This document shows positions 3,324 to 56,115 of a stretch of 64,000 nucleotides of DNA, one piece after another. The DNA lies in assembly GCF_003860125.1 (NCBI RefSeq), contig NZ_RQYL01000006.1, positions 1 to 64,000 on the forward strand, read 5' to 3'. Position numbers and translations under genes: made by a program. Position 1 is the first letter of the stretch, and each line of letters begins with the position of its first letter. The notes below the pieces were generated by a model. It saw only the letters and a list, made by a program, of their open reading frames with translations, was not told the origin of the DNA and searched no databases. The DNA comes from Fretibacterium sp. OH1220_COT-178. Lineage in GTDB: Bacteria; Synergistota; Synergistia; Synergistales; Aminobacteriaceae.

Positions 3324-4838
3324 ATGCGAATTTTGCGAGGGGCGGTTTGTTTGTGCACGGTCGTTGCCTGGGCGGCGTTCGCGGGGGCGGCGTCCGCGGA
3401 GGTGGTGCTGAGGGTGGCGCAGATGTCCGACATCAGCACCCTGGATCCTCACAAAGCGGCGGACGCGTATTCGGCCAACGTCATGAGGCAGGTTTACAAC
3501 GCGCTGGTGCAGCCGGACCCGAACATGGAGTTCAAGGGCGACCTGGCGGAATCCTGGGAGAATCCGGATGACCTCACCTGGCTCTTCCATCTGCGCAAAG
3601 GCGTGCTGTTCCACAACGGCGAGGAGTTCACCGCCGACGACGTGAAATTCACCCTGGAGCGGATGCTGGACCCCAAGACGGCCTCTCCCGGCGTGACCCA
3701 TATCCGGGAGGTCGACAAGGTCGAGGTTGTGGACAGGTACACCGTCAGGATCGTGACGAAGGCTCCCTATGCGCCTCTGATATCGAACCTGGGCCGCTAC
3801 GAGATGTGCATGCTGAACGAGAAGGCGGTCCGGGAGGCCGGGGAGGACTACGGCAGGCATCCCGTCGGCACGGGGCCGTTCATGCTGGACGTCTGGCGTC
3901 CGGGGGATCGGGTGGAGCTGAAGAAGTTCGACAAGTACTTCGAGGGGATGCCGAAGGTCGATCGAATGGTCTTCCGCGGCATTCCGGAGGAGGCCACCCG
4001 GGTCATCGAGCTGGAGTCCGGCGGTGTGGACATCTGCATCGACCTCCCGGCTCAGGATTACGCCCGGATCAAGGCCGAGGGCAGGTTCAAGGTCTACGAG
4101 AAGCCGAGCATCACCTCGAACTACTACGCGTTCAACGCGCAGGCGACGCCCTTCCAGGACAAGCGGGTGCGCCAGGCGCTGAACTATGCCGTGGACGTCG
4201 ATGCGCTGATCGATGCCATCTATTTCGGCATGGCGGTGAAGAGCCGCGGTCCCATGACCGAGCAGATCTGGGGCTTCGACGAGACGCTCCCCGAGGACCC
4301 GTATCCCTACGACGTGGAGAAGGCCAAGGCGCTCCTCGTGGAGGCGGGCTACCCCAACGGCTTCAAGACGAAGCTTTATTCCAGCACGCAGAGCCAGTCC
4401 CGAGCGACTGCGGAGCAGTTTCAGGCCTTTTTCGCCGAGGTGGGAATCGAGGCGGAGGTCGTGTCCCTGGAGTGGGGCGCGTATCTGGCCGAGACCCGCA
4501 AAGGGGTGGACGGCATGTTCACCCTGGGCTGGAGCGGAACGGGCGACGCGGACGGCGCGCTCTCCTACCTTTACGATTCCAAGAACATCGGTTCCTCGAA
4601 CCGCGCCCATTGGGCCGATTCCAAGTTCGACGAGCTGATGGCCGAGGGGCGCCGGACGCTGGACCCCGAGAAGCGCAAGGCCATATACCGAGAGGCCCAG
4701 CGCTACTTCAACGAGGAGGTGCCCATCGTCCTGATGCACTCCCGAAAGCTCCTGTGCGGTTCCAGCCCGAAGGTCAACGGGTTTGAGATCTATCCCAACC
4801 AGGTCTACCGCCTGTTCAACGTTTCCATGGAGCCCTAG
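3324..4838 (+). CDS. dppA: Peptide ABC transporter substrate-binding protein (family 5), second copy
   Basis: 504-residue paralogue of the protein at 647-2167, near-identical over long stretches such as NGEEFTADDVKF and MFTLGWSGTGDADGAL, with small differences in the likely ligand-contact half. The signal peptide (MRILRGAVCLCTVVAWAAF, cleavage near AGAASA) contains a Cys, but not in a convincing lipobox. The start at 3324 is set by GGAAAGGAAGGG upstream and by the signal peptide. It directly precedes the permease genes, so it is the most likely cognate binding protein; the first copy may broaden the peptide range. Confidence 0.93.
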   Translation: MRILRGAVCLCTVVAWAAFAGAASAEVVLRVAQMSDISTLDPHKAADAYSANVMRQVYNALVQPDPNMEFKGDLAESWENPDDLTWLFHLRKGVLFHNGEEFTADDVKFTLERMLDPKTASPGVTHIREVDKVEVVDRYTVRIVTKAPYAPLISNLGRYEMCMLNEKAVREAGEDYGRHPVGTGPFMLDVWRPGDRVELKKFDKYFEGMPKVDRMVFRGIPEEATRVIELESGGVDICIDLPAQDYARIKAEGRFKVYEKPSITSNYYAFNAQATPFQDKRVRQALNYAVDVDALIDAIYFGMAVKSRGPMTEQIWGFDETLPEDPYPYDVEKAKALLVEAGYPNGFKTKLYSSTQSQSRATAEQFQAFFAEVGIEAEVVSLEWGAYLAETRKGVDGMFTLGWSGTGDADGALSYLYDSKNIGSSNRAHWADSKFDELMAEGRRTLDPEKRKAIYREAQRYFNEEVPIVLMHSRKLLCGSSPKVNGFEIYPNQVYRLFNVSMEP

Positions 4839-4918
4839 GGGAAAACCCGGCCACCGGCGATTGGCGTTCCTCCATCCCGTTCGGACCCCGGATCCGAGTA
4901 CGGTCCGTCCGACAGAGC

Positions 4919-4975
4919 CGCAGGGGGCGTCGGCCCAACTTCGGGATTTCCCGGGTCCGGCCCCTGCGTTTGATT
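4919..4975 (+). terminator. Terminator-like hairpin between binding protein and permease
   Basis: CGCAGGGG at 4919-4926 pairs with CCCCTGCG at 4961-4968, followed by TTTGATT. Inner GGCCC/GGGTCC pairing extends it. The position, after a highly expressed binding-protein gene and before dppB, suits partial termination. Confidence 0.5.
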
Positions 4976-4996
4976 CCTAAAGGGAGAAGCGAGCAC

Positions 4997-5929
4997 ATGC
5001 TGCGTTATATTTCGAGGCGAATTTTGTTTCTGATACCGGTGTTGATCGGGGTCTCACTCCTGATCTTCTCGATCATTCACCTTGCCCCCGGCGATCCCGC
5101 CGAGACCATGCTGGGGCCGAGCGCGACGGCGCAGGACCTCGAGGAGCTGCGGGCTCAGCTCGGCCTGAACGAACCCCTGACGGTCCAGTACCTGTCCTTT
5201 ATGGCCCGAGCGGTGCGCGGGGATTTCGGCCGCTCGATCCGCACCAACAACCCCGTGCTGGAGGAGATCGTCGACCGGTTCAAGCCCACGCTCGAACTGG
5301 CCTCCTGGAGCATGTTGCTGGCGGTAGCGATGGGCATTCCCCTGGGCATCGCCGCGGCCCTTCGGCAGAACACCTGGATCGACACCCTCTGCAACTTCGT
5401 GGCCCTTCTGGGCTTCTCGCTGCCGGGCTTCTGGCTGGGGCTGATGCTGATGCTGACGTTCTCCATCATGCTCCCGGTGCTGCCGTCCTCCGGGTACGGG
5501 TCCTGGAAACAGCTCATCATGCCGACGATCGTCTTGGGCACGAACACCATGGCGGTCATCGCGCGCATGACGCGTTCGAGCATGCTGGAGGTCATCCGCC
5601 AGGACTACGTCCGGACGGCGAAGGCCAAGGGACTGGCCTGGCGGCTCATCCTGTCGCGCCACATCCTCAGCAACGTGCTGATCCCCGTCGTGACGGTCGC
5701 AGGGCTCTACTTCGGCAACATGCTGGGCGGGGTCGTGATCACGGAGACGATCTTCTCGATCCCCGGGGTGGGGCGGCTGATCATCGACGCGATCCGCTTC
5801 CACGACTACCCCGTCGTCCAGGGGGGCGTCCTGTTTTTCGCGTTCTGTCTGAGCCTCGTCAACCTCGGGGTCGATCTGATCTACGCCCTGCTGGACCCCA
5901 GGATCAAGGCCCAGTACCGGGCGGGCTAG
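4997..5929 (+). CDS. dppB: Peptide ABC transporter permease DppB
   Basis: 310-residue inner-membrane permease of the DppB/OppB family. It starts with the characteristic MLRYISRRILFLIPVLIGVS membrane segment and the LAPGDPAE loop, has about six transmembrane helices, and carries the cytoplasmic EAA loop (DYVRTAKAKGLAWRLILSRH) that contacts the ATPases. The ATG at 4997 follows GGGAGAAGCG and gives the family-standard N-terminus, so the ATG nine codons earlier was rejected. The dppC gene begins 15 nt after the stop, consistent with one operon. Confidence 0.95.
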   Translation: MLRYISRRILFLIPVLIGVSLLIFSIIHLAPGDPAETMLGPSATAQDLEELRAQLGLNEPLTVQYLSFMARAVRGDFGRSIRTNNPVLEEIVDRFKPTLELASWSMLLAVAMGIPLGIAAALRQNTWIDTLCNFVALLGFSLPGFWLGLMLMLTFSIMLPVLPSSGYGSWKQLIMPTIVLGTNTMAVIARMTRSSMLEVIRQDYVRTAKAKGLAWRLILSRHILSNVLIPVVTVAGLYFGNMLGGVVITETIFSIPGVGRLIIDAIRFHDYPVVQGGVLFFAFCLSLVNLGVDLIYALLDPRIKAQYRAG

Positions 5930-5944
5930 GAGGTGCTGTGAACC

Positions 5945-6832
5945 ATGGGAAACGTTCAAACGGCCTCTCCGGGCCGCGTTCGGGAGAGCCGGCAGAGCCG
6001 GCTGGGCGAGCTGTGGCGCCGTCTCCGCAGCAACAAGGGGGCCGTGCTGGGCCTCGTCGTCATCCTTTTGCTGACCTTGATGGCGATCTTCGCGCCCTAT
6101 CTGGCGCCGTACGATCCCAATAAGATGAACTCCGGCCCGAGGCTGGCCCCGCCCTCCTGGAAACATCCGCTCGGGACCGACAACTTCGGCCGCGACCAGC
6201 TCAGCCGGATCATCTATGGAGCGCGGATATCCCTCTACGTCGGTTTCATCGCGGTGGGGATCGGGGCTTTCTTCGGCGGCTTCATAGGGGCCGTCGTGGG
6301 CTACTATGGGGGCCGAATCGACAACCTCCTGATGCGGCTGATGGACGTTCTGCTCGCGGTTCCGCAGATCATCCTGGCGATCGCCATCGTCGGGGCGCTG
6401 GGGGCCAACCTGCTGAACCTGATGATCGCGGTGGGCGTCAGCCAGATCCCGCGCTATGCGCGCATCGTCCGCGCCTCCGCGCTGTCGGTGCGCGGCCAGG
6501 AGTTCGTGGAGGCGGCCCGCGCCATCGGGGCCAGCGACCTCCGAATCATCACGGAGAACATCCTGCCCAACTGCATGGCCCCGATCATCGTTCAGAGCAC
6601 CCTGGGCGTGGCCGCGGCGATCCTCTCCGCAGCCGCCCTGAGCTTCCTGGGGCTCGGCATACAGCCCCCGACGGCGGAGTGGGGGTCCATGCTCAGTCTG
6701 GGGCGGCAGTACATGCGCAACGCGCCGCACCTCACCTTTTTCCCGGGACTGGTCATCGCCATGGTCGTCCTGGCCCTGAATCTCTTCGGGGACGGGCTGC
6801 GCGACGCCCTCGACCCCCGGCTGCGCCAGTGA
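5945..6832 (+). CDS. dppC: Peptide ABC transporter permease DppC
   Basis: 295-residue partner permease. The N-terminal cytoplasmic leader, first helix and LAPYDPNKMN motif are typical of OppC/DppC N-terminal domains, followed by HPLGTDNFGRDQLSRI at about residue 75. The EAA loop (EFVEAARAIGASDLRIITEN) is intact. AGGAGGTG lies 8 nt before the start. It forms the translocation pore with DppB; the ATPase genes follow after 13 nt. Confidence 0.95.
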   Translation: MGNVQTASPGRVRESRQSRLGELWRRLRSNKGAVLGLVVILLLTLMAIFAPYLAPYDPNKMNSGPRLAPPSWKHPLGTDNFGRDQLSRIIYGARISLYVGFIAVGIGAFFGGFIGAVVGYYGGRIDNLLMRLMDVLLAVPQIILAIAIVGALGANLLNLMIAVGVSQIPRYARIVRASALSVRGQEFVEAARAIGASDLRIITENILPNCMAPIIVQSTLGVAAAILSAAALSFLGLGIQPPTAEWGSMLSLGRQYMRNAPHLTFFPGLVIAMVVLALNLFGDGLRDALDPRLRQ

Positions 6833-35778: not shown

Positions 35779-35800
35779 GCCACGCCTGTCCTTCGCGAAG

Positions 35801-35839
35801 GAGGAGGCCGCTCAGGGGCGGCCTCCTCTCGTGATTTTT
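35801..35839 (+). terminator. Terminator after ppdK
   Basis: GAGGAGGCCGC (35801-35811) pairs with GCGGCCTCCTC (35818-35828), an 11-bp stem with a 6-nt loop, then TCGTGATTTTTA. Confidence 0.75.
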
Positions 35840-36159
35840 AGGGAATGATGCCGTAGTTTTGACGGCGAATCGCATTGATCCAAGCGGCAATTGCTCGCCT
35901 TCCCCGATGGGATGACCGCTGAAGCTCCTGATGAAACCCCTGCGTCCGGCAACGCAAATCAAGGATTTACTGTCTCACTTATGCCGGGGTAGGGCCAGGC
36001 CGCCAGCGATTTCCCGAAGGGGAGAACTGTCTAGTTCGGCTGGTTTCTTCATCAGGTACCGAGCGAAGTGAGGCTCCGGGCCGGAGATGGTATCATACGC
36101 AACGTAGGGAACCGGCCGAATTGGAACGCCGGAATCTCGCGTGCAGAGGAGGTTGCAAG
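35838..36159. other. Gene-free region with a possible decayed coding fragment
   Basis: No intact gene is supported. On the minus strand, 35975-35838 is open for about 45 codons and ends AIAAWINAIRRQNYGIIP, which looks protein-like and could be the decayed end of an old gene; it has no start or ribosome-binding site. TATCAT at about 36088-36093 may be a -10 for the following selenoprotein gene, without a clear -35. Confidence 0.3.
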
Positions 36160-36774
36160 ATGAGTCTCAAGGAGAAGCTGGACAAGCATCGAGCGGCCAT
36201 GCCCTCGCGCTTCACCGAGGAGCAGCGGCAGGTCATGGGGCATTTCAAGGAGACCGTGGCCGCGGCGGTGCGCAGGGTGCCGAAGGTCGGGGACCTCCTG
36301 CCCCCCCTTCCGATGAAGGGGGCAGAGAAGGCCCAAAGGGAATTCAAGCGGCTGGTGCTGGTCTTTTTCAGGGGCGCGTGGTGAGGATACTGCGTCCTGC
36401 AGTTGCAGGACTATAACGCCGCCCTCGAGGCGTTCCACGCCAAGGATACGGAGGTGGTCGCCCTCTCTCCGATGACGGAGGCGCAGACCGCCGCCCTGGC
36501 CGGGAGGCTGGGCCTCGGATTTCCGATCCTGAGCGACCTCCACAACGCCTATGCCCGCAGGCTCGACCTGCTTTTCGAGATCGAGCCCGCGGTACGGGAG
36601 ATCTACATGTCCCGGGGCCTGAGCCTTCCGGAGTACGACGGGGACGAGAGCTGGGAGCTCCCCGTCACCGCGGTATTCGTGACGGACGAGAACCGAAAGG
36701 TCCTCTACGCGTGGACGGAGTCGGACTACACCCAGAGGCCCGATCCCGAGGAGCTGCTGGCGGCCCTCGACTGA
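36160..36774 (+). CDS. Peroxiredoxin-like selenoprotein (in-frame UGA read as Sec75)
   Basis: 204 residues if UGA at 36382-36384 is decoded as selenocysteine. The reading frame is the same on both sides of the UGA and joins LVLVFFRGAW-U-GYCVLQLQDYN, exactly where peroxiredoxin-like (AhpC/TSA) family proteins have a W-C-P-Y-C-type active site. Sec75 replaces the first, peroxidatic-type Cys; Cys78 remains. The second half is collinear with the family: VVALSPMTEAQ, FPILSDLHNAYARRLDL and a C-terminal YTQRPDPEELLAAL. A perfect 7-bp hairpin follows the UGA. ATG at 36160 has GGAGG 7 nt upstream and a strong terminator follows, so the gene looks like a functional monocistron rather than a pseudogene. 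It should reduce peroxides or related substrates in the cytoplasm. No Sec machinery genes are in the window. Confidence 0.82.
36382..36411 (+). promoter_or_regulatory. Candidate bacterial SECIS element with Sec-UGA
   Basis: UGA at 36382-36384 is followed, 9 nt later, by GTCCTGC (36394-36400), loop AGTT (36401-36404) and GCAGGAC (36405-36411): a perfect 7-bp stem. The small apical loop with G and U lies 16 nt past the UGA, within the spacing known for SelB-binding bacterial SECIS hairpins. It is part of the coding sequence. Confidence 0.72.
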
Positions 36775-36830: not shown

Positions 36831-36869
36831 GACGACCGTTCTTCCGAGAGGGAGGGGCGGTCGTCTTTT
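36831..36869 (+). terminator. Terminator after the selenoprotein gene
   Basis: GACGACCG (36831-36838) and CGGTCGTC (36858-36865) form an 8-bp stem, followed by TTTTC. Confidence 0.75.
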
Positions 36870-55919: not shown

Positions 55920-56115
55920 AATATGGCAAAAACCCGTTCGTTGGGGGAAGTCGGGTGTGAAGCCCGCGCGGTCCCGCCGCCGTGAAGGGGGACGGGTACG
56001 GCCGAGAAGGTCCGGGAAGCCGGATGCGACGCGGACGTACGAGGTCCTCTGAAGCCGGAATGCCTGACGTATGGGTGAGAGCATCCCAACCACGAGCGAT
56101 GGAGACGGAGCTTCC
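55920..56115 (+). promoter_or_regulatory. Cobalamin riboswitch
   Basis: The leader carries the conserved core GTCGGGTGTGAAGCCCGCG-CGGTCCCGCCGCCGTGA and, about 75 nt later, a B12-box-like GAAGCCGGAATGCCTGACG, in the order of AdoCbl aptamers. An extended -10 TGTGCTATCAT lies at 55874-55884 and a small hairpin (CGAAGG/CCTTCG) at 55896-55916. It precedes a Co/Ni ECF uptake operon, a classic riboswitch target. Confidence 0.88.

Follow-up and report, generated by a model that had tools for sequence, protein, structure and literature searches.

A predicted UxxC peroxiredoxin-like selenoprotein with a conserved SECIS hairpin in Synergistota

In this work we looked at a 64,000-nucleotide stretch of DNA from Fretibacterium sp. 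OH1220_COT-178 (the window), which carries a peroxiredoxin-like gene with one in-frame UGA. Based on sequence comparison, this UGA, at codon 75, very probably specifies an active-site selenocysteine (Sec) of a redox protein with a peroxiredoxin fold. An earlier note on this DNA had proposed a selenoprotein, and this is borne out: the genome has the Sec machinery, orthologues share the UGA, Cys/Sec pairs occur among the homologues, and the hairpin that follows the codon shows covariation. SelB and tRNA-Sec would decode the UGA as Sec, guided by the hairpin directly downstream. A well-supported selenoprotein gene is thereby added to a phylum known as selenoprotein-rich; at the UGA, standard gene callers would break the gene in two or cut it short.

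The gene and its reading frame

Table 1. Features of the predicted selenoprotein gene, in window coordinates
Feature	Position	Strand	Remarks
UxxC peroxiredoxin-like selenoprotein gene (predicted)	36160..36774	+	204 residues with Sec75; stop TGA 36772-36774
In-frame UGA, predicted Sec codon 75 in W-U-G-Y-C	36382..36384	+	same codon is TGA in 6 further Synergistota genomes; TGC or TGT in the 11 Cys homologues
TGC codon of Cys78, which pairs with Sec75 in UxxC	36391..36393	+	aligned with the peroxidatic Cys of peroxiredoxins
Bacterial SECIS hairpin GUCCUGC-AGUU-GCAGGAC	36394..36411	+	7 bp, 4-nt loop, G second in loop
Ribosome-binding site AGGAGG	36147..36152	+	7 nt 5' of ATG; read directly
Likely intrinsic terminator GACGACCG...CGGTCGTC then TTTT	36831..36869	+	read directly

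When TGA is read as a residue, positions 36160-36771 translate into 204 codons, and the TGA at codon 75 is the only one inside the frame. The GC content of the three codon positions is 0.66/0.41/0.88 before the TGA and 0.68/0.40/0.90 after it; since this composition matches on both sides, the stretch 3' of the TGA is coding. Both observations agree with the earlier note, in which the UGA was said to join two half-frames into one gene. The ribosome-binding site, which the note had called good, was also found (Table 1). The note had further described a terminator behind the gene, and here the result is mixed: a terminator-like element is visible by direct reading, but the terminator scan of the + strand did not report it and gave only the terminator of the upstream gene (35800-35829), because the loop of the visible element is too long for the scanner, which allows loops of up to 8. 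No promoter was found in the promoter scan.

The neighbouring genes in the window encode a pyruvate phosphate dikinase and a histidinol dehydrogenase, as assigned by reading their translations. A conserved gene neighbourhood was looked for at four orthologue loci, and the flanking genes differ among them, so that the gene looks stand-alone. Elsewhere in the window a cobalamin riboswitch is found at 55922-56085 on the + strand (37.2 bits, cut-off 31.5).

Sec machinery, orthologues and Cys homologues

The host genome (2.86 Mb, 99.96% complete) was searched for the Sec machinery, as the note had advised, and all of it is present. The genome has a tRNA-Sec (74.3 bits, cut-off 47), a SelA domain of 451 bits, a SelB with its winged-helix domains and a SelD, which has an internal TGA of its own. 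The SelA and SelB genes overlap in one operon (4634-6040 and 6037-7959 of L022). GrdA (CFVU), GrdB (STUGTC) and a peroxiredoxin with the motif FTYVU, all of the same genome, served as positive controls, and each has an internal TGA. Recoding of UGA is thus to be expected in this genome, given the full machinery together with the internal TGA of these three and of SelD. A YedF-like protein, with a TusA domain and a weak DsrE match, adjoins selA on the opposite strand (L022:3868-4785, - strand) and probably has a role in selenium metabolism. The GrdA and GrdB genes (L052) point to an amino-acid fermenter of the glycine-reductase type.

Among 188 genomes of Synergistota, full-family matches were found in the window's genome and in six others (G043, G051, G052, G066, G067 and G185). 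Each has a single TGA within the matched active-site stretch, and it is the same codon in all seven genomes. The five orthologues that were aligned are 34-41% identical to the window protein. A scan of genome contigs returned the same Sec group, including a metagenome-assembled genome (MAG) of Acetomicrobium hydrogeniformans, and one Acidobacteriaceae homologue with Cys. Weaker matches in G021 and G031 were set apart from the six orthologues as Bcp-like proteins with the motif TSGUTSE, and the matches at three further loci (L018, L020 and L021) were too weak to be accepted as orthologues. In three related genomes of genus g3 (L016, L017 and L019), Bcp-like peroxiredoxins carry TSGUTSE with an internal TGA; judged by their sequences, these proteins appear to be another Sec family within Synergistota. 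Searches of viral contigs and of phage records gave no relative and no match, respectively.

Outside Synergistota, the Sec codon is replaced by TGC or TGT in 11 of 11 homologues, which come from Proteobacteria, a cyanobacterium, a Bacteroidota and an Acidobacteriaceae MAG; where the gene is annotated, its name is 'peroxiredoxin-like family protein'. These homologues carry WCPYC at the same place, which supports the suggestion that Sec75 replaces the first Cys of WCxYC, the motif of this family, and the comparison across the UGA site that the note had called for gives Sec/Cys pairs (TGA in 7 genomes against TGC or TGT in 11 homologues). In a tree of these 18 sequences, one branch with support of 98/96 parts all seven Sec rows from the eleven Cys rows; the tree is unrooted and gives no direction for the exchange between Cys and Sec.

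Two rival explanations of the TGA can be weighed against these data. One is that the true codon is TGC or TGT and was misread, or that a Cys gene has recently become a pseudogene through a nonsense mutation. Although the branch of the window protein is rather long (1.46), no support was found for such an error, and the same codon is TGA in six other genomes, that is, in independent assemblies whose proteins, where compared, are 59-66% different. In addition, the TGA is accompanied by a SECIS-like hairpin, and both the frame and the codon-position composition are intact beyond it. An error or a fresh mutation, which the earlier note had already held to be less likely, is therefore extremely improbable; in practice, sequencing error, a pseudogene and chance are excluded. 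The other explanation is a programmed truncation, in which the UGA would mostly act as a true stop and the functional product would have 74 residues. Sec insertion in bacteria is generally inefficient, which would fit such a product, but the orthologues preserve the 129 codons past the UGA, including invariant blocks such as SPM and SW-LP, and a piece of 74 residues would be without the active site. Truncation is thus just as improbable, and the UGA is best read as a Sec codon flanked by conserved coding sequence.

The SECIS hairpin

The UGA is separated from the hairpin by 9 nt and from the loop by 16 nt. The hairpin folds with -12.8 kcal/mol (z -2.2), a value that 4 of 200 shuffled sequences also reach; judged on folding energy, which is weak evidence, the window hairpin on its own is only moderately unusual. 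What makes it convincing as a SECIS is its conservation among the orthologues. Seven Synergistota hairpins share an invariant UGC-AGUU-GCA core, placed 9-10 nt 3' of the UGA, and the pairs around this core vary in a compensatory way: at 14-29 the window gene has U-A where the six other orthologues have G-C, and at 16-27 U-A of G066 stands against C-G elsewhere. G052 has U-G at pair 15-28, and only the window gene (G-C) and G067 (C-G) form the outermost pair. With these seven sequences, the covariation score was matched by 4 of 500 shuffles, and sliding the partner columns of the alignment by 1 to 3 destroyed the structure. RNAalifold predicted six of the same pairs. The 7-bp hairpin with its AGTT loop was pointed out in the earlier note, and its position, conservation and covariation are all in line with a SECIS.

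The hairpin overlaps the conserved residues LQLQ, and part of its conservation could be driven by the protein. A protein-only origin is disfavoured by the compensatory changes and by the 11 Cys homologues, in which the hairpin was looked for and is not present. Over the SECIS region the Sec proteins have V/R-L-Q-L-Q, against N-[M/L/I]-E-L in most of the Cys proteins, which suggests that the RNA hairpin may constrain the protein there; the Acidobacteriaceae Cys row (V-L-Q-M-E) is an exception. Codon usage was also considered as a sign of such a constraint, as the hairpin contains a TTG, the single one among 26 Leu codons; these counts are too small and the argument was dropped.

Fold, active site and known relatives

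The protein matches the Pfam AhpC-TSA domain (PF00578) with 60.2 bits (cut-off 26). A structure model built from the seven sequences has a mean pLDDT of 87.6 and a pTM of 0.86, and its residues from about 39 to 204 superpose on peroxiredoxins (Foldseek, VIA-align 2). The structural matches, among them M. tuberculosis BcpB (Z 17.2) and AhpE (Z 16.8) and Sulfolobus Bcp4, have Z of 16.4 to 17.2 and rmsd of 1.9 to 2.5 over about 140 residues. Residues 1-37 form two helices in the model, mostly outside the peroxiredoxin match. Sec75 opens the active-site helix (residues 76-87), with Cys78 one turn further.

In a HMMER alignment to 2ywn, W-U-G-Y-C lies over F-T-Q-V-C. This places Sec75 on the Thr of the peroxiredoxin signature PxxxTxxC, Cys78 on the peroxidatic Cys and an Arg on the Pro; the protein has R-G-A-W-U-G-Y-C instead of the classical PxxxT/SxxC (or U) signature, with UxxC in place of TxxC. 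The Thr of the signature helps peroxide binding. By this alignment, the active site is a thioredoxin-like UxxC, that is, of a 'Prx-like' protein and not of a classical Sec-peroxiredoxin. The claim that the Sec form would be more reactive toward peroxides overreaches, since Sec75 stands on the Thr position and Cys78 on the peroxidatic one.

One possible mechanism is that the Sec75 selenolate attacks a peroxide or a disulfide-type substrate, that Cys78, as the resolving residue, then joins the oxidised Sec75 in a selenenylsulfide, and that a thioredoxin-type system reduces this bond and regenerates the protein. We consider this chemistry rather probable, with the substrate and the reductant inferred along with it; for the predicted activity, mainly a peroxidase and mainly a thiol:disulfide oxidoreductase have about even chances. 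The selenoprotein could also act mainly as a classical-type peroxidase, in which Cys78 would be peroxidatic and Sec75 would have only a resolving or peroxide-polarising role. Such a role would suit the peroxiredoxin fold and the alignment with 2ywn, but the protein lacks the PxxxT of the signature (R for P, Sec for T) and Sec is normally retained at the nucleophile position. Moreover, the Sec of the family is the first position of UxxC (PMC1088965), and we find a peroxidatic Cys78 rather unlikely compared with Sec75 as the nucleophile.

A Prx-like family in which UxxC replaces TxxU was described in the Sargasso Sea survey, and such selenoproteins have been catalogued since 2005 (PMC1088965); 225 'Prx-like 1' UxxC selenoproteins were found in the GOS survey (PMC2398784). 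They belong to the Prx-like thiol:disulfide oxidoreductase selenoprotein family of pfam00578, with UxxC or UxxU (PMC1088965, PMC1794560, PMC2398784, PMC13188914), and in 2016 Synergistetes was described as a phylum rich in selenoproteins (PMC5029168). The gene is thus not new in kind, contrary to what had been implied (PMC1088965, PMC2398784, PMC13188914), and would be a well-supported new example of the known UxxC Prx-like selenoproteins, a family likeness that is drawn by description. It shares with them the AhpC/TSA domain, UxxC for TxxC, a downstream SECIS and Cys homologues in many bacteria; by the same kind of comparison, the Synergistota group differs in having two helices at the N-terminus that fall outside the Prx match, and in the invariant core of its SECIS.

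The Cys homologues are about 30-35% identical over most of the length and differ by the Cys at the Sec position and by lacking the hairpin. In a 2026 review the name 'peroxiredoxin-like family' is tied to cd02970, where the Sec form listed is UxxS (PMC13188914), whereas the window gene has UxxC. It is tempting, yet still doubtful, to see the Synergistota group as a separate Sec subfamily within cd02970, whose protein was reshaped by the SECIS at the LQLQ stretch relative to most Cys homologues. In cyanobacteria, CxxC occurs in PRX-like proteins without the remainder of the Prx triad (PMC3514251). The best NCBIfam model is the SelL-related redox protein NF040769, a Prx-like relative with a thioredoxin fold, but the scores of 32-38 bits for the window protein (32.3) and for P0007 are below its cut-off of 120.

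The window's genome also encodes a second, classical Sec-peroxiredoxin with GDFTYVUPTEL (L058, G000:C13:15192-15596, - strand). This PxxxTxxU protein has the fold superfamily and an active-site Sec in common with the window protein; its Sec is peroxidatic, while the window protein carries Sec where the Thr would be, Cys where the peroxidatic residue would be and Arg in place of Pro. The TxxU and the UxxC form occur in one genome, which would allow a side-by-side biochemical comparison of the two Sec positions within the same fold. Near the classical gene, and preceded by a Fur/PerR-like frame, lies an AhpC-like gene that has Cys (L057, FTFVCPTE).
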